A stretch of DNA of 64,000 bases from Chthonomonadales bacterium (GCA_027459625.1 DAIDHP010000020.1:1-64000), one strand, 5' to 3'; positions 895 to 8,173 are shown, numbered from the stretch's first letter. Notes: generated by a model from the sequence alone, not told the origin. A program made the numbers and translations.

Positions 895-1074
895 CCACTT
901 ACAGGGAGCAATGCCCTGTATTTGCACCCATCAGCGCCATATGAAAAAAATATTAAATCGGATGAGACACAAAATGGATCTTTATGCGTCTAAAACTATG
1001 GATGAGAACTGTTTAGAGGTGTGAAATCCATCACTTCCTTTAAACTGTCGGCAATTGGAGATCGAGGCGTTAAG

Positions 1075-3135
1075 ATGAAGCGAGTGGTATCCGCTCCTAC
1101 GATGATAAAAATGGCAGGTTTGCTTATTTTCGCGTACTTCATGCTGACGTGCACATTGTTCGTGTCGGCGGATACGCCCTTTAACTTCACCTCCGATTCG
1201 GCTTCGCAATTTGGCGAGTTGGCTGCAACGGACATATTCATCGGCAAGGGTGTCACAGGCCCTTATCTTCTCACTTGGAACGGGATTGTGCCGGGAAGCG
1301 AGACGGTGATGCGGAACTCCGCCCAACGGGAGCCTGCCAACGATTATCGAATCGACGAGGCGACCGGGGAGATATTCTTCACCACGCCACTCGGAACGAA
1401 TGAAATCGTGAGAGTGGACTATCTCTATACGCCGGGACAATCCACCGTAAATGCATCTTCAAAATCCAATCCCATCACCTTAAATCTGTTATCCAAACTG
1501 CAGGGGAATCTGGTTTTGAACGCAGTTCTTCAGCCGTCCGATATGGGGGGAGCCGGATCCGCAGCAACATCCCCAAACCCTTTGGATTTTTCATTGAGCG
1601 CCAAGTCCCAATTGTCACAAGGCTCTACGATCCAGAGCGCATTGTATTTGGATACGAGAGGAGGGAACCTGTTGCAAAGATCCGGTTTGAGCTTGGATCA
1701 ATCCAACAAAACTTCCATTGGCTCTTTCAATCTCCATTTTGCGCGAGGCGGTGCGAATTTCACACCGAACTTCCCCACCAGCATTGCGTCAGGCTCGCAA
1801 GTGATGGAGGGTACCGCGAACTTCAATCCGTTGTTTGGAATCAAAGCCGCGGCATCCTTTGCGCAGACGAATCAACTTACCGATACAGGCGTTGGGAATA
1901 AGCAAACCACGCTTCATGAAAATCTGACTGGAAGTTACAAGACCGGCACACAGATCAGTCTCATGAACACGGAGACATATGTGGACCCGGCGGATTCCTC
2001 GAAACTTTCCGAGATGGAAAACAGTCTGCATCTATCCCAGCGTTTGGGATCAGCGTCAAACCTGGATTTCGTTTTGGATTGCGTAAACCAAAGGCAAGGG
2101 GAAACGTCATCACAGTCAAATAATTCGACTCTCTCCTTCACAACACAACCTTCGAAGATCATTAAACTTAGCGGGTCGTGGTTGAACTCATTCAACGCTC
2201 CAAACGGATCCAACGATACGAAACTCAATCTTATAGCGGATCCATCAAAGCAGATGAACGTATCCGTTTCAACGGAAGATAGCATCCAAGGTGCGAGTTC
2301 ATTTCATAATCGCCGGGCTCAGGTGAATTACAAACCGTTGAAAAATGTCAGTTTGACCGGTGGTGTGCAGGACCAAACCAATTCCGGCACAGAGAACCTA
2401 TCCGAGAATTTGGGTGCATCCATCACGCCATCGCGTACGCTGCAGTTAAGCGGGAATCTTCAAATAGGGAACGTAAATTCCAATAGTCAAGCACAGTTGA
2501 AATTCACTCCGCTGCAAAGCTTCACGCTCACAGGCGGCGTGCAGGATCAATCCTCTTCCGGAGTGAAGGACCTCTCGGCAAATATGAGCGCCTTCGTCGC
2601 GCCATCTCGTTATTTGCAGGTAAGCGGTGGGGTGCAGGTGCGAAAGTCCAATTGGGGTTTCGTCACTTCCTCTAGTCAGCAGGATTCATACAATCTTCAA
2701 CTTGCGCTACAACTCCCCAGGCATGAATTCCGTTTGACCAGCGGCATTCAGACAAACCCATCCGCGCCAAACGGTGTGTTCACACTACAATCCAAGCAAA
2801 ACCTTGGGATTCAATCGACTATCGGACCGCTCAACCTCACCGGCAACTATGCATACTCGCAAAATAATTTGCAAGCCGGTTGGCTTCGACAAATGGAGGT
2901 GCAACTTGGCTGGCGATTGGCTCCAAACACATCGCTGAGTTCGGCTTATAGGTTAAATCAAACTTTCAGCGGCGGCATTACCACAATAAACAATTACACT
3001 CTGAACTTCACTCGCTCCCTCGGATCCACGTTCAACCTTAGCCTCGGCGGAGGGATGACGGACACGATTCAGCCTGGCGACTCTTCTCTTGATCGTGCGT
3101 ATCAGGCGAATGCACAGTTAGCGTATAAGTTTTAG
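1075..3135 (+). CDS. Predicted outer-membrane beta-barrel protein with internal repeats
   Basis: A 686-residue protein. I start it at ATG 1075 because GAGG lies 7 nt upstream; an in-frame GTG at 1021 has no such site. An N-terminal hydrophobic segment (MAGLLIFAYFMLTCTLFVSA) acts as a signal peptide. Residues about 35-110 form a short distinct domain (NGIVPGSETVMRNS, DYRIDEATGEIFF), and the rest is alternating polar/hydrophobic strands rich in Ser, Thr, Asn and Gln, ending in LAYKF with a terminal Phe, as in outer-membrane barrels. A unit with YKPLKNVSLTGGVQDQ near residue 418 recurs as FTPLQSFTLTGGVQDQ near residue 476, a 58-residue (174-nt) period, so the barrel has grown by internal duplication. 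Cargo or function is unknown. It precedes the ExeA/ParA cluster on the same strand by 126 nt. Confidence 0.6.
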   Translation: MKRVVSAPTMIKMAGLLIFAYFMLTCTLFVSADTPFNFTSDSASQFGELAATDIFIGKGVTGPYLLTWNGIVPGSETVMRNSAQREPANDYRIDEATGEIFFTTPLGTNEIVRVDYLYTPGQSTVNASSKSNPITLNLLSKLQGNLVLNAVLQPSDMGGAGSAATSPNPLDFSLSAKSQLSQGSTIQSALYLDTRGGNLLQRSGLSLDQSNKTSIGSFNLHFARGGANFTPNFPTSIASGSQVMEGTANFNPLFGIKAAASFAQTNQLTDTGVGNKQTTLHENLTGSYKTGTQISLMNTETYVDPADSSKLSEMENSLHLSQRLGSASNLDFVLDCVNQRQGETSSQSNNSTLSFTTQPSKIIKLSGSWLNSFNAPNGSNDTKLNLIADPSKQMNVSVSTEDSIQGASSFHNRRAQVNYKPLKNVSLTGGVQDQTNSGTENLSENLGASITPSRTLQLSGNLQIGNVNSNSQAQLKFTPLQSFTLTGGVQDQSSSGVKDLSANMSAFVAPSRYLQVSGGVQVRKSNWGFVTSSSQQDSYNLQLALQLPRHEFRLTSGIQTNPSAPNGVFTLQSKQNLGIQSTIGPLNLTGNYAYSQNNLQAGWLRQMEVQLGWRLAPNTSLSSAYRLNQTFSGGITTINNYTLNFTRSLGSTFNLSLGGGMTDTIQPGDSSLDRAYQANAQLAYKF

Positions 3136-3261: not shown

Positions 3262-4110
3262 ATGCCTACGGAATATATTCGGCATTTTGGGATGTCGGAA
3301 ACCCCGTTCGCGCGAAACCACGATCCCCGCTGGCTTTATCTCTCTTCCCAACACAAGGAGGCGATTATTAAAGCCAGATGGACGATTGAGGAACATGGCG
3401 GACTCGCTTTGATACGCGGGGATGTCGGTCATGGTAAATCCTTTCTTATTGAATATCTTATGACAACATGGCCCAATCAATTCGGATGGAAATGCGCCAA
3501 GCTGCAAAACACCGGCACGATTTCCACCCCAAAGGCTCTATTGACTGAGGTGTTGTCCGCGTTTGGACTGGAACCTGCCAACACTGTGCGGGAGATGGCG
3601 ACAAATTTGGAATCCTGGCTTCTTTCTCAATGTTATGAAGATAACAAAACCATTGTGTTATTTGTGGATGAGGCTCAGTCTGTTGGATCTCGCGCTTTGC
3701 CCGTGTTGAGAGACTTGTTGAACCTGGAAACTCGCGAACAGATATTGATGCAGATAGTTCTTTCCGCGCAACTAAATATCGATAAAAAGCTGATGCATTT
3801 CCCGGCGCTGCAAAGCAGAATCGCATCGGTATCCACCTTGGAGCCGTTGTCCGCGGAGGAAACGGACGCCATGCTTTTGCATCGCTTCCGTCGAGCGGGA
3901 TGCATCGACCCCATTCATCTCTGCCCCTTCGAAACCATGCATGCAATCTATTTGCATAGCGGGGGAGTTCCAAGGGACATCCTCGTGGTTGCGGAGGCGG
4001 CGATGAAGGAGGCGTTTTTACGGGATAATTGGCAACTCTTGCCGGAACATGTGGAACAGGCTGTGAAGGACATGGCGGGACGAAAGCCGAAACTAGCGAA
4101 GGCGGCTTGA
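3262..4110 (+). CDS. ExeA/GspA-like AAA+ ATPase
   Basis: A 282-residue cytoplasmic ATPase. It opens with YIRHFGMSETPFARNHDPRW, the signature of the ExeA/GspA/TniB-like AAA family that often works with secretion or transposition machinery. Walker A is GDVGHGKS (residues 53-60), Walker B is IVLFVDEAQ (D137, E138), and LNLETREQILMQIVLSAQ supplies the sensor-1 strand. A C-terminal winged-helix-like tail (SGGVPRDILVVAEAAM) follows. No membrane or peptidoglycan-binding segment is present, unlike full-length ExeA/GspA. The site AGGAGG lies 7 nt before the ATG. First gene of a six-gene plus-strand cluster (3262-8076) with ParA and a cyclase-like protein. The actual partner is not evident from the sequence. 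Confidence 0.8.
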   Translation: MPTEYIRHFGMSETPFARNHDPRWLYLSSQHKEAIIKARWTIEEHGGLALIRGDVGHGKSFLIEYLMTTWPNQFGWKCAKLQNTGTISTPKALLTEVLSAFGLEPANTVREMATNLESWLLSQCYEDNKTIVLFVDEAQSVGSRALPVLRDLLNLETREQILMQIVLSAQLNIDKKLMHFPALQSRIASVSTLEPLSAEETDAMLLHRFRRAGCIDPIHLCPFETMHAIYLHSGGVPRDILVVAEAAMKEAFLRDNWQLLPEHVEQAVKDMAGRKPKLAKAA

Positions 4111-4111
4111 A

Positions 4112-4486
4112 ATGATGGATCGAGAGAAATCGCAAAACGGAAACAAGCGACGAAAATTAGACGAACTCTTCGCGGATGAACCATACCTGTCCGCAACGAT
4201 GAAGGCTAACAGACTCCATGAAAAGCTTAAAATGCTTGAAGAGCAGGAGAGGGCGGCGCAGGGTCTGCCCACGGAAGCCTACGTTGTCGATCGAAACTCA
4301 TCGCCGGAACGCCTCACGACTCCTAACGTCCTTAACCAGCCTCATAGCACTGTGGTCATCTTCCAACAAGCGAAACGCTACTATTCGGAAGGATTGATAC
4401 AGGGGTTGGACAGGCACCAAATCCACTCCTTGGATTTGGTGCGCAATACCACTATTGCGAAATGGCTGGAAAATCAGTCTCGATAA
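4112..4486 (+). CDS. Small protein with KRRKLDELFA/YLSATMKA N-terminal motif
   Basis: A 124-residue soluble protein starting 1 nt after the ExeA-like gene, so very probably translated with it. The family is not one I recognise. Residues 12-40 (RRKLDELFADEPYLSATMKA, then HEKL) match the N-terminus of the HTH protein at 7471-8076 at about 20 of 29 positions, while the rest is unrelated. After the motif come a charged helix (KLKMLEEQERAAQ), a linker, and a C-terminal part ending SLDLVRNTTIAKWLENQSR that is predicted helical. The shared motif may be an interaction peptide used by both proteins within this cluster. The alternative start is the second ATG at 4115. Confidence 0.7.
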   Translation: MMDREKSQNGNKRRKLDELFADEPYLSATMKANRLHEKLKMLEEQERAAQGLPTEAYVVDRNSSPERLTTPNVLNQPHSTVVIFQQAKRYYSEGLIQGLDRHQIHSLDLVRNTTIAKWLENQSR

Positions 4487-4654
4487 AGGCGATTGCGGTC
4501 ATTCTCGGAACCGGGAGCGTTCATTTCCTTTAACCCCGGAACCAAAGACGAGCAATCGCATAAAAAACGAACAGGAATCACAGAACTTGGTGTGTGTAAT
4601 ATGGTTTGCGTTGATGCGCTAATCGATATTTACTACCGAGGATGGAGGTCAATC

Positions 4655-5470
4655 ATGATGATATACGCAGTGACCAGCCAAAAGGGCGGCGTGGGCAAAA
4701 CCACAACCACCGTGAACTTGGGGGCGGGTCTTGTTTCTCAGGGGAAGAGAGTCTTGATCATAGATTTGGATCCTCAGGGAAGCCTGTCCGCCTCAGTTGG
4801 CGTCCATCTGATTAAAACCTCTCTCTCGGATGTGCTATTGAATCCTGAATGGATTAAAAACGCAATCTATCCTTGCTCAGGAGGGATGAACGTCATACCG
4901 GCAAGCGCATCGTTGGCGAATGTGTTGCTTGAGTTATCGGATATGGAGGCCCCGGCATGGAGACTTGCCCAGGCTCTAAGATATGTCTCCAACTTGTATG
5001 ATTACGCTTTGATCGATTGCCCGCCCTCCTTGGGGCACGCCACGACGAACGCCCTTACCGCCGCAAACGTGGCGCTGGTACCACTCCAGTGCGAGTTTCT
5101 CTCGCTTCGCGGACTTGCCGATGTTCAAGAGATCTCTCGTGCAATTCAGGATACGACCAACCCGGATTTACGCCTCAGAGTGGTTGCCACAATGTATGAT
5201 AAACGCACCATTCACGCCAACGATGTGTTAAGAGAGGCCCGCCTCGCCTTGCCTGGTTTGGTTTATGAAACAGTAATTCCCCGCACAATCCGATTGGCGG
5301 AGGCTCCCGCAATGGGGAAAACGATTTTGGAATACGCGCCGGATTCCAATGGCACGTACGCCTATTGCGCCTTGGCGACCGAGATAATGGAGGAGGATAA
5401 GGGATATGGAACGACGCGAAGATATACGAGCGGCGATGCACAATCTACTCTCACAAGGAAAGCCGCATGA
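4655..5470 (+). CDS. parA: ParA/Soj-family partitioning ATPase
   Basis: A 271-residue deviant-Walker ATPase. MMIYAVTSQKGGVGKTTTTV carries the ParA-type Walker A with the signature Lys (KGGVGKT, residues 10-16). DLDPQGSLSASVG is the A' box, and DYALIDCPPSLGHAT is Walker B. I start at ATG 4655, where GGAGGT lies 5 nt upstream; the frame is open further back to 4493 but lacks a site. No ParB or parS site is recognisable nearby, so a role in positioning a protein complex (as ParA homologues do for chemoreceptors, pili or secretion machines) is at least as likely as chromosome partition. The 3' end overlaps the next gene by 65 nt. 167 nt separate it from the upstream small gene. Confidence 0.9.
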   Translation: MMIYAVTSQKGGVGKTTTTVNLGAGLVSQGKRVLIIDLDPQGSLSASVGVHLIKTSLSDVLLNPEWIKNAIYPCSGGMNVIPASASLANVLLELSDMEAPAWRLAQALRYVSNLYDYALIDCPPSLGHATTNALTAANVALVPLQCEFLSLRGLADVQEISRAIQDTTNPDLRLRVVATMYDKRTIHANDVLREARLALPGLVYETVIPRTIRLAEAPAMGKTILEYAPDSNGTYAYCALATEIMEEDKGYGTTRRYTSGDAQSTLTRKAA

Positions 5471-5753
5471 ATCAACACCCGCCAATCCTCCATCTGTCCA
5501 TCCGGAGCGAGCAGGCTCCATACGTAAAGACGATATCATCCCCTCAAACTCACTGAGTTGGGAGTTTTTACTTTCTGGTATGCAGGAGGAATTGAAATCC
5601 GTTGGTATATTGGCTGAACGAGAGGAATTGATAGACGCCATTGGCACTAGCCTATCCTTGCGTTTGGACTTGGTGAGGTATTTAATAGCCTCTTATTTGA
5701 CCGGAGAAAATCATTCCGGAAATCAGGCGATACAATACCAAACCGGAAAATAA
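5406..5753 (+). CDS. Uncharacterised 115-residue protein downstream of ParA
   Basis: It starts at ATG 5406 inside the 3' end of parA in another frame. The strong site GGAGGAGG ends 9 nt before this ATG and supports the start. The N-terminal half is polar and Pro/Ser-rich (likely disordered). The C-terminal half (SWEFLLSGMQEELKSVGILA, then AIGTSLSLRLDLVRYLIASY) is predicted helical. Small proteins encoded right after an orphan ParA often act as its partner or adaptor; that role here is inference from position only. No known domain recognised. Confidence 0.6.
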   Translation: MERREDIRAAMHNLLSQGKPHESTPANPPSVHPERAGSIRKDDIIPSNSLSWEFLLSGMQEELKSVGILAEREELIDAIGTSLSLRLDLVRYLIASYLTGENHSGNQAIQYQTGK

Positions 5754-5886
5754 AAGGATCATTTACAACATGAATCTTTATCAATCATTGTCGTGCTGCT
5801 TTCATAACCGGAATGATGAGAATCGCGGTAAGGTTTGAAGATATCGGCCGGCACTCAAAAGGGAAGTATCCAGAGGTAGATTGGCC

Positions 5887-7329
5887 ATGAAAAAAAAGAA
5901 TATTATTAAAGGGTTGTACTCGAAAATTGTTACGGGTCCGGTTGTATTACTTCTGCTATGGCTGTTGATACCCGGCGTGATCAACTATATCCTATCCAAG
6001 CAAGCAGCGGATCAAGTTATACAGGACAAGGCTATGCTTGCCATAAACTCCTTTTTATCCAATCGTTCGATCATGCAGTACAACTCGGAGAAGGATATGA
6101 ACTCTGCTCAACCGGAATGCCAAGTTCGATACCTTCCATCAAGTTGGCTTAACGACGGTAAAAACGGATCCGCATTGGATAACAGGATATGCGCCGCATT
6201 TTTAGCGGACCCTCGCGTTAAAAATCTTGAAGAGTATATCAACAGGGATGAGGGAAGATATTATCTGTACGCCGAACCAATCAGAGATTCCACGCCTGGA
6301 GTGCTCAATACGGAAGGAGATAAGAACAATCAGCCCGGAAAATTGCGCGGGGTTGCGATGGTATTGCTGCCTGTCGCACCCGATTATCAATTGGCGGTGA
6401 ACGCAGGGTTCACATCATTGAAAATAGGCGCATTCCTTGTGCTCGGCTGTATGCTGTTGCTCATTTGGCAGGTTAGATCGAAAATCCTTTCTCCGGTTGA
6501 AAAGCTCTTTAAGATTAGCGAATCCATACGACAAGGGCAATGGGATGCAAAGTTCACCCTCCCCGAGAAAACGGAGTTGCAGACACTTGCAATGTCTTTC
6601 CAGGAAACTAGTTTATGGTTGCGCCAAAGAGTGGCGCAGGAGGAGAAACTTCGGTCGATGTTCCAACAGTTCGTGCCTGCGTCGGTAGCGGCAAAGGCGC
6701 TTGGTAAAAAGAGCGATGATGTGCTGGAAGGGCGTCAATACCATGTAACCGCGATGGTGATTAATATTCGTAACTTCAGATTGCTTATGGATAATCTCCC
6801 GCCTGCGGAAACTGTCAACACTCTCAATGATTATTTCAGAGTGGTGAATAATGTGATTGTGGCGAATAAAGGAATTGTATGCCGATATATGGGCGACACA
6901 GTGCTCTCCTTGTTCGGTGTTCCCGAAACGACAGAGAACCACACGCTGCATGCCATCAAGGCGGCGTTGGAGGTGCCTGCTGCGCTCCAAAATCTGTATG
7001 TGCGATTGAGCGAACAGAAGGGATGGGAACTGGGAGTCGGGATAGGTATCGCGGCAGGAGAACCGATAGTGGGGCATTTCGGAAGCACGGAGCATATGGA
7101 ATACACCGCTCTTGGCGATGTTGTCTTGCAAGCGGGAAATATGGAGGGTATTAGTAAAACCGTTCCGGAAGAGGATACGATACTCCTTACCGAATCCGCC
7201 TATCGCAATGTGATGTCGGATGTGCATGTATATGATATCGGAGAGAAAACAATTGCCGAAGGATCTAAAATGCATGTGTTTGTGGTTCAGGGTCTTAGGG
7301 CGGAGGCCAGACAAAAGCTTGCCGCCTAA
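5887..7329 (+). CDS. Membrane HAMP protein with a degenerate class III adenylate/guanylate cyclase domain
   Basis: A 480-residue protein. TM1 is at about residues 17-37, then a roughly 140-residue extracytoplasmic domain, TM2 at about 176-196, HAMP at about 197-250, and a cyclase-fold domain at about 285-470. The fold signatures are clear (RYMGDTVLSLFG, GIGIAAGEPIVGHFGS, MEYTALGD). Key catalytic positions are not: the first metal-binding Asp of the usual ADIRGF motif is Asn293 (VINIRNF), the purine-contacting Lys position is Arg333, and the transition-state Asn and Arg after GD are Leu414 and Asn418 (GDVVLQAGN). Only Asp337 is kept. It is therefore probably not an active cyclase and may instead sense or bind nucleotide or act as a scaffold. 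Start chosen at ATG 5887; TTG 5881 is possible. Confidence 0.85.
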   Translation: MKKKNIIKGLYSKIVTGPVVLLLLWLLIPGVINYILSKQAADQVIQDKAMLAINSFLSNRSIMQYNSEKDMNSAQPECQVRYLPSSWLNDGKNGSALDNRICAAFLADPRVKNLEEYINRDEGRYYLYAEPIRDSTPGVLNTEGDKNNQPGKLRGVAMVLLPVAPDYQLAVNAGFTSLKIGAFLVLGCMLLLIWQVRSKILSPVEKLFKISESIRQGQWDAKFTLPEKTELQTLAMSFQETSLWLRQRVAQEEKLRSMFQQFVPASVAAKALGKKSDDVLEGRQYHVTAMVINIRNFRLLMDNLPPAETVNTLNDYFRVVNNVIVANKGIVCRYMGDTVLSLFGVPETTENHTLHAIKAALEVPAALQNLYVRLSEQKGWELGVGIGIAAGEPIVGHFGSTEHMEYTALGDVVLQAGNMEGISKTVPEEDTILLTESAYRNVMSDVHVYDIGEKTIAEGSKMHVFVVQGLRAEARQKLAA

Positions 7330-7470
7330 TAAAACAGGCAAGGTTGCGCGTTTGACTCGACCAAGCGTTGTGGCACAAATCATATAAAAGGATGATGCGG
7401 AGCCAACAATCCAGTGAGATTGTGTATGCATCCTCCCATGCGTGATCCTCAAAAGGCGGCAAGGAAGAAA

Positions 7471-8076
7471 ATGAACGAAAACAGCGAAATCGTGCAGCTC
7501 AACAGACGGCGCAAACTGGATGAGCTTTTTGCCGAGCAGCAGTATCTCTCCGCCACAATGAAAGCCAGGTCCATTCATGACAGGCTTGATGACGAACCCA
7601 TACCTATGGTGATTCCGATCATCACGCAGGAGGCGAGTGATGGTGCCTCCCCGACCAACTTCAAGGAGATTCCATGGACGCATCAACCGTCTGAGCGTAA
7701 GCAAGCGGATGCCAGGTCGGAAAGCATGTCCATGAGAACCAACACCGTAATCGAACCTTATCAATCTCAGACGATTAGCATCTCATCTTCGAAAAAGGAG
7801 AACAAGCAAGAGGAACGGATGCTGCTCCAGTTGAGCATTTCATCCGAAGTCAAGGATGAAATTCGCGGTCATTCCCAGCATGGCTTGCCCGCTCCGGATG
7901 TTATGACTATCGAGGAAGCGGCGAATTATCTCCGTGTGAGCGTCGCAATCATACGCACATGGGTGCGTGAGAAAAGCGTCCCATGTGTACATCTTGGTAA
8001 AAAAGTGAGATTCCGAAAAGAGTCTCTCCTATCTTGGCTTGGGGAGCAGGAGGTGGAATTTCGAACCAAGGCATAA
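7471..8076 (+). CDS. Excisionase-type HTH protein with KLDELFA/YLSATMKA N-terminal motif
   Basis: A 201-residue protein starting at ATG 7471 behind AAGGAAG; that start aligns its N-terminus with the protein at 4112-4486. Residues 12-40 repeat the shared motif (RRRKLDELFAEQQYLSATMK). A long, polar, likely flexible linker follows (about 40-140). Residues about 144-192 are a MerR-like helix-turn-helix of the excisionase family (MTIEEAANYLRVSVAIIRTW, then HLGKKVRFRKESLLSWL). It is therefore probably a DNA-binding regulator for the cluster, or an adaptor that tethers the complex to DNA. It is the last gene of the cluster, 141 nt after the cyclase-like gene. Confidence 0.75.
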   Translation: MNENSEIVQLNRRRKLDELFAEQQYLSATMKARSIHDRLDDEPIPMVIPIITQEASDGASPTNFKEIPWTHQPSERKQADARSESMSMRTNTVIEPYQSQTISISSSKKENKQEERMLLQLSISSEVKDEIRGHSQHGLPAPDVMTIEEAANYLRVSVAIIRTWVREKSVPCVHLGKKVRFRKESLLSWLGEQEVEFRTKA

Positions 8077-8096
8077 TGTACGGTTGACATTCTCCG

Positions 8097-8126
8097 ATGG
8101 GTCGAAGTGAATTGGCTTCGACCCAT
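8097..8126. promoter_or_regulatory. 11-bp perfect inverted repeat just upstream of the gpmA -10 box
   Basis: ATGGGTCGAAG (8097-8107) and CTTCGACCCAT (8116-8126) flank an 8-nt loop. There is no T-run after it; TATAAT follows at 8131-8136, so the repeat covers the -35 region for gpmA. It could be an operator or a weak terminator for the HTH gene that ends 20 nt upstream. Confidence 0.5.
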
Positions 8127-8173
8127 TGGGTATAATGGATATGATTAACAATCAACATCAAGGAAACAATATC

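Follow-up and report, generated by a model that had tools for sequence, protein, structure and literature searches.

A six-gene cluster on the plus strand of a 64,000-nucleotide stretch of DNA from a Chthonomonadales bacterium (GCA_027459625.1 DAIDHP010000020.1:1-64000; the whole stretch is referred to here as the window) is a composite of two loci that share a peptide motif, are joined in one genus only and lie separately in two genera. In order, the genes encode an ExeA-like AAA ATPase (AAA hereafter), a small motif-bearing protein (m1), a ParA ATPase, a second small protein (sm4), a membrane receptor with a degenerate cyclase domain, and a second motif-bearing protein (m2) with a helix-turn-helix (HTH) domain. 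The first four constitute module A and the last two module B. A first-pass annotation, made from the sequence, had described these six same-strand neighbours, and all of the open reading frames (ORFs) were recovered in the order that it gave. We tentatively read the two co-inherited modules as parts of one device that would position a DNA-linked complex at the membrane in response to a signal.

The comparison covered 291 genomes of the phylum, 31 of them from the window's order. Module A occurs in five genomes of one family (the window's genus together with G003, G004 and G006), and four of these five also carry module B. Orthologues of AAA, 70-100% identical, were found in five other genomes; the module type of ParA is confined to five of the 31 order genomes, with the next best match only 44% identical, and sm4 is present in the same five among all 291. 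An orthologue of the receptor (at least 43% identity) is encoded in G000, G001, G004 and G006, in all four cases with an m2-type gene directly downstream and, among the genomes compared, never without module A; the receptor and m2 probably act as a pair. The modules stand side by side in the window's genus and on different contigs in G004 and G006, and G003, whose genome is 94% complete, has module A alone. The gene following m2 in G004 is gpmA, as in the window, and in both G003 and G006 module A adjoins a gene of the phosphodiester glycosidase family, with a gene for a polyphosphate kinase-like protein (so named from sequence only) nearby. The single cluster of the first-pass annotation thus stands for the window's genus and resolves elsewhere into two unlinked loci. 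The co-occurrence check suggested with it was carried out, and its proposed refutation, a lack of co-inheritance, failed: the genes are co-inherited. A joint function of the two modules is argued because otherwise unlinked loci with a common peptide stand adjacent.

The peptide shared by m1 and m2 is a block in which 20 of 29 residues are identical (68.97%; m2 positions 30-58 in the numbering of the long ORF), with tblastn E values of 2e-8 to 5e-9 against the set of 16 kb loci, in agreement with the figure of about 20 of 29 first put forward. Residues R13, L16, D17, L19, F20, A21, L26, S27, T29, M30, A32 and H36 (m1 numbering) are invariant in eight m1-/m2-type proteins. A 36-column profile of the motif, run over the 291 genomes, found matches (E 1e-14 or better) only in G000, G001, G003, G004, G006 and G012, all of which carry this AAA; the remaining 285 genomes yielded no motif above chance, three weak matches (E 4e-4 to 5e-3) looking random. 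The suspicion that the motif might be a common unrelated linker is excluded within this phylum by the same profile. The C-terminus of m2 is an HTH_17/excisionase domain (Pfam and NCBIfam), and neither m1 nor sm4 matched any family. The earlier remark that the other parts of m1 and m2 differ is only partly right, as the m1 C-terminus gives a weak alignment to the HTH domain in m2 (hhalign E 0.001 at 20% probability) and may be a decayed copy of it; the alignment, which is no more than suggestive, would fit m1 being a copy whose DNA-binding domain was lost. In G012, which belongs to a different family, AAA is followed by a single protein bearing both the motif and HTH_17, and the two ParA genes of that genome belong to types other than the module ParA. 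Because the motif persists there with AAA and without the module ParA, it more likely serves AAA than ParA; docking of the motif on AAA is thus somewhat probable, and more likely than docking on ParA.

ParA matched AAA_31 (E 1.6e-46) and Soj structures (E 1e-49), keeps the deviant Walker A motif KGGVGKTT, and forms in the tree a clade of its own, apart from chromosomal ParA, from a third ParA type and from the ParA of G040. The cluster was correctly said to contain no ParB: the genome's ParA-ParB pair sits on another contig, and in this the cluster differs from ParABS chromosome segregation, where ParB accompanies ParA. The first 15 residues of sm4 are near-invariant (M.RR[DE]DIRAAM..LL), and in its AlphaFold model residues 4-15 form a low-confidence helix, which a disordered linker separates from a three-helix bundle with a local pLDDT (predicted local distance difference test) of 80-91. 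ParA partners generally bind via a charged N-terminal segment, and the first 20 residues of McdB, a predicted helix, are both necessary and sufficient (PMC12204374, PMC10241942). At the level of sequence alone, sm4 agrees with this rule for a partner of the adjacent ParA. Because its layout fits the rule and its gene overlaps that of ParA, sm4 is the best candidate for, and probably is, the ParA partner. In the ParA/MinD positioning systems McdAB and PomXYZ, ParA likewise adjoins a small protein whose basic N-terminal helix and separate C-terminal part are joined by a disordered linker (PMC12204374), whereas the window cluster has in addition a second, AAA-type ATPase with motif-bearing adaptors and a membrane pseudo-cyclase, and no recognized cargo gene. 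The third ParA type (L093 7184-8954; L097 5186-7297) is accompanied by a conserved upstream protein of 272-282 aa with no Pfam family and, in L097, by a small protein downstream.

The receptor shares with class III adenylate/guanylate cyclases a fold recognized by sequence (Guanylate_cyc E 2e-12; cyclase structures E 1e-16) but departs from them in that all four orthologues have Asn in place of the first metal-binding Asp and lack the transition-state Asn/Arg pair, the second Asp being kept. Judged from these residues, the cyclase domain is predicted to be catalytically dead, and the annotation of a degenerate membrane cyclase is upheld by both the orthologues and the membrane-protein layout. 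The ratio of nonsynonymous to synonymous substitution rates (dN/dS) of 0.06 marks the receptor as a maintained pseudo-enzyme, not a decaying gene. Its HAMP match is weak in G006 and above the cut-off in G004; its ectodomain is a Tll0287-like Cache in G006 (E 6.9e-13, with CVRCH), with a below-cut-off match in G004. The ectodomain of G006 resembles that of the sCache_heme (Tll0287/DUF3365) receptors and has the CXXCH heme motif, which has been lost in the window protein, G001 and G004; this loss is unusual because the family retains CXXCH in 99% of its members (PMC12889525).

The AAA family is present in 105 of the 291 genomes, and across the phylum the ExeA-like AAA genes usually precede the gene of a DNA-binding partner. 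In 19 of 20 sampled type IV pilus operons (L196-L215; families f14, f34, f35 and f36), the gene between AAA and the downstream PilM encodes a protein whose conserved short N-terminus is joined by a linker to HTH_17; L212 passes directly from AAA to PilM, the middle gene being absent. The partner in other families has a ribbon-helix-helix (RHH)-like end (PDB profile match E 2.8e-4 to a 56-residue protein, which we take to be an RHH regulator; also an RHH-type antitoxin). In a tree with a midpoint root and long branches, the window AAA is nearer to the RHH-partner group than to the pilus, GspA or XrtA types. Pairs of AAA and an RHH-like partner stand beside RepO-type replication genes in L037, L038, L041 and L191-L194, and L038 has in addition, upstream, a gene resembling RepB primase and, downstream, one that is Shedu-like; such pairs may serve mobile elements as a module for replication or partition. 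At the end of a contig of G040, probably from a plasmid (L042 7017-9980; another family), a ParA whose N-terminus is HTH-like is followed consecutively by an RHH protein, AAA and the beginning of a partner; the two ATPase-adaptor pairs of the window recur here in a different order. No AAA relative was found in phages, and plasmids gave only 39 distant ones, the three loci examined being of exopolysaccharide (EPS), XrtA and GspA types. A docking motif common to all AAA partners was considered and rejected, being significant with related representatives and not robust with one per class.

In the proposed positioning device, module A would consist of two ATPase-adaptor pairs, ParA with sm4 and AAA with m1, and module B would pair the dead-cyclase receptor with m2, which combines an m1-like motif and a DNA-binding HTH. 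Both m1 and m2 would dock on AAA via the shared 29-residue peptide, and sm4 on ParA via its basic N-terminal helix; ParA would move or anchor the assembly on the nucleoid, and m2 would connect it with DNA. Driven by the Cache sensor in the periplasm, the dead cyclase domain would serve as a platform for binding m2, capturing or releasing it. All protein contacts, the direction of signalling and the cargo are what we infer. This reading is supported by the occurrence of the motif and AAA in the same six genomes, of ParA and sm4 in the same five, and of the receptor always upstream of m2; by modules that are unlinked in G004 and G006 yet adjacent in the genus; and by the phylum-wide position of AAA genes before a DNA-binding partner. 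Several points weigh against it. The carriers number five or six genomes, all related, so that the co-occurrence is partly phylogeny; no cargo gene was recognized in the cluster or its shared neighbours; the fold of sm4 had no match in the PDB; the predicted structure of m1 is of low confidence; and, with one representative per class, the common docking motif was equalled by 28 of 60 shuffles at width 8 and by 0 of 40 at width 7. The positioning or signalling complex of the envelope first suggested has gained from the co-inheritance, the specificity of the motif and the degenerate receptor, has lost its link to secretion, and is still a proposal as regards positioning or signalling itself.

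The main rival, which we regard as rather unlikely, is membrane-to-gene signalling with no positioning, in which the receptor and m2 would form a one-component-like transcription regulator and AAA and ParA would be remodelling or sequestering ATPases. The invariable adjacency of the receptor and m2, the HTH_17 domain, the conserved region upstream of the receptor gene, and the dead catalytic residues, which suit a binding platform, all speak for it; however, it leaves unexplained both the constant company that ParA and sm4 keep with m1 and the retention of the motif by m1 without a recognizable HTH.

It is unlikely that the cluster descends from a maintenance cassette of a mobile element and is now, on the chromosome, reused or residual; in such a cassette, AAA with a DNA-binding adaptor and ParA with an adaptor would have served replication or partition. 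AAA does group with relatives beside RHH partners, several of them in RepB primase or RepO modules, and the probable plasmid contig of G040 carries the corresponding genes consecutively. However, no replication, mobilisation or integrase gene was recognized around the window cluster, G003 and G006 share chromosomal neighbours, the long branches and midpoint root of the tree qualify the grouping of AAA, and the module ParA does not fall with that of G040. Similarly improbable is a ParA-activating role for the shared motif, which would make m1 and m2 ParB-like partners and AAA an accessory. The basic N-terminal stretch of the motif and the hydrophobic residues after it resemble the peptides of ParA partners, for example the start of the genome's own ParB, MEKRGLGKGLGALIAD, but the motif persists with AAA in G012, without the module ParA, and sm4 is better placed as the ParA partner.

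Least probable is that AAA helps to assemble an envelope machine, be it a type IV pilus, a secretin or a polysaccharide exporter, in the manner of ExeA/GspA or XrtA. In favour of this, TIGR03015 is the best NCBIfam match of AAA, AAA and HTH_17 precede PilM in 19 of the 20 sampled relatives of other families, and outside relatives lie in GspA-GspB and XrtA/EPS loci. Against it, the TIGR03015 score (137.3 bits) is below the cut-off of 324.5, AAA and HTH genes are missing from the genome's own pilus operon, the cluster has no recognized gene for a secretin, an exporter or a sortase, and the AAA tree sets these types apart. The AAA protein (282 aa) matched ATPase families only, with no transmembrane, periplasmic or peptidoglycan-binding fusion; this weighs less against GspA because forms of GspA without the periplasmic part exist (PMC9239104). 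As in GspA/ExeA-GspB, the partner encoded directly after an ExeA-like AAA has a short cytoplasmic segment at its N-terminus (GspB starts with MSYILDALRRADAERER), but the next gene here is m1, not GspB, and the partners are DNA-binding or unassigned. The XrtA/PEP-CTERM ATPase locus likewise combines AAA, a ParA-fold kinase and an outer membrane protein, whereas the window has a Soj-type ParA in place of a tyrosine autokinase, and no polysaccharide genes. The pair that precedes pilMNO-secretin genes in other families of the phylum shares the order of AAA and the short-N-terminus/linker/HTH_17 protein, whereas in the window's order this pair lies away from the pilus genes and is associated with ParA and the receptor. 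The role in ExeA-type secretion or envelope assembly advanced in the first-pass annotation was not sustained, given the clustering of AAA with relatives that have DNA-binding partners, several near replication genes, the composition of the pilus operon, and the order-wide occurrence of the outer-membrane-like gene upstream. A search of the literature, chiefly open papers, on ExeA/GspA with ParA and related terms returned nothing describing this composition.

The features of the cluster are listed in Table 1. Inner ATGs were used for ParA (4655), the receptor (5887) and m2 (7471), because homologues do not share the longer starts of the ORF finder (for ParA, the ORF from TTG 4493 is too long); with this ParA start, the gap between m1 and ParA is 168 nt. 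All six genes are under purifying selection (dN/dS 0-0.33 in a comparison of the window genome with another species of its genus). The AAA protein is 100% identical between the two species, at a synonymous divergence (dS) of 0.07 versus 0.15-0.36 in neighbouring genes, which may reflect either recent exchange or constraint at the DNA level. The intergenic region before the receptor gene, with 97% identity between the two species versus 90-92% in flanking coding DNA, is a probable regulatory region. A scan for promoters and terminators stayed at chance level, and a search of the cluster for a parS-like or iterated site returned only short two-copy repeats, as chance predicts. Between m2 and gpmA, at 8094-8129, a 14-nt inverted repeat with an 8-nt spacer lies beside TATAAT; it may function as an operator for m2 or else as a terminator. 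Upstream of the cluster, window positions 1021-3135 encode a repeat-rich protein of 704 aa whose N-terminus is signal-like and which probably forms a barrel in the outer membrane; it matched nothing in Pfam or NCBIfam, and its gene was rejected as a cluster member, as it occurs in 24 of the 31 order genomes, many of them without the AAA.

Table 1. Features of the six-gene cluster, in window coordinates
Feature	Position	Strand	Evidence
ExeA-like AAA ATPase (AAA_22), 282 aa	3262..4110	+	Walker A GDVGHGKS, Walker B-type LFVDEAQ; orthologues in other genomes
m1, small adaptor; N-terminal motif RRKLDELFADEPYLSATMKA; C-terminus possibly a decayed HTH	4112..4486	+	motif profile, hhalign
Shared motif in m1 (coding)	4136..4240	+	profile match E 1.9e-22
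ParA/Soj-type ATPase, 271 aa	4655..5470	+	family, structure-profile and tree evidence; ATG start inferred from homologues
sm4, candidate ParA partner	5406..5753	+	invariant N-terminus, disordered linker, three-helix C-terminal bundle; 65-nt overlap with the ParA gene
Intergenic region preceding the cyclase gene, probable regulatory region	5754..5886	+	interspecies identity
Membrane receptor: N-terminal hydrophobic segments, Cache (Tll0287-like) region, HAMP-like linker, class III cyclase domain	5887..7329	+	family and structure matches
m2; N-terminal motif RRRKLDELFAEQQYLSATMKA, long linker, C-terminal HTH_17/excisionase-type DNA-binding domain	7471..8076	+	family and motif matches
Shared motif in m2 (coding)	7495..7599	+	profile match E 8.6e-22

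ParA ATPases are common, and many are "orphans" whose partner and cargo are unknown (PMC10241942). The ParA of the window is an orphan-type case for which there is a clear partner candidate, as well as another ATPase and a receptor, and is experimentally tractable. The ExeA-like AAA genes of this phylum, a kind commonly interpreted as secretion factors, mostly precede a DNA-binding partner. No description was found of this pattern, nor of the pair of AAA and a short-N-terminus/linker/HTH_17 protein in type IV pilus operons. It is possible, if doubtful, that the cluster represents a dual-ATPase device in which an ExeA-like AAA and ParA, each with a docking adaptor, would tether a specific DNA region or a DNA-bound complex to the membrane under a dead-cyclase receptor, and that ExeA-like AAAs more broadly would be motors acting via N-terminal-peptide adaptors, many of them with DNA-binding domains.

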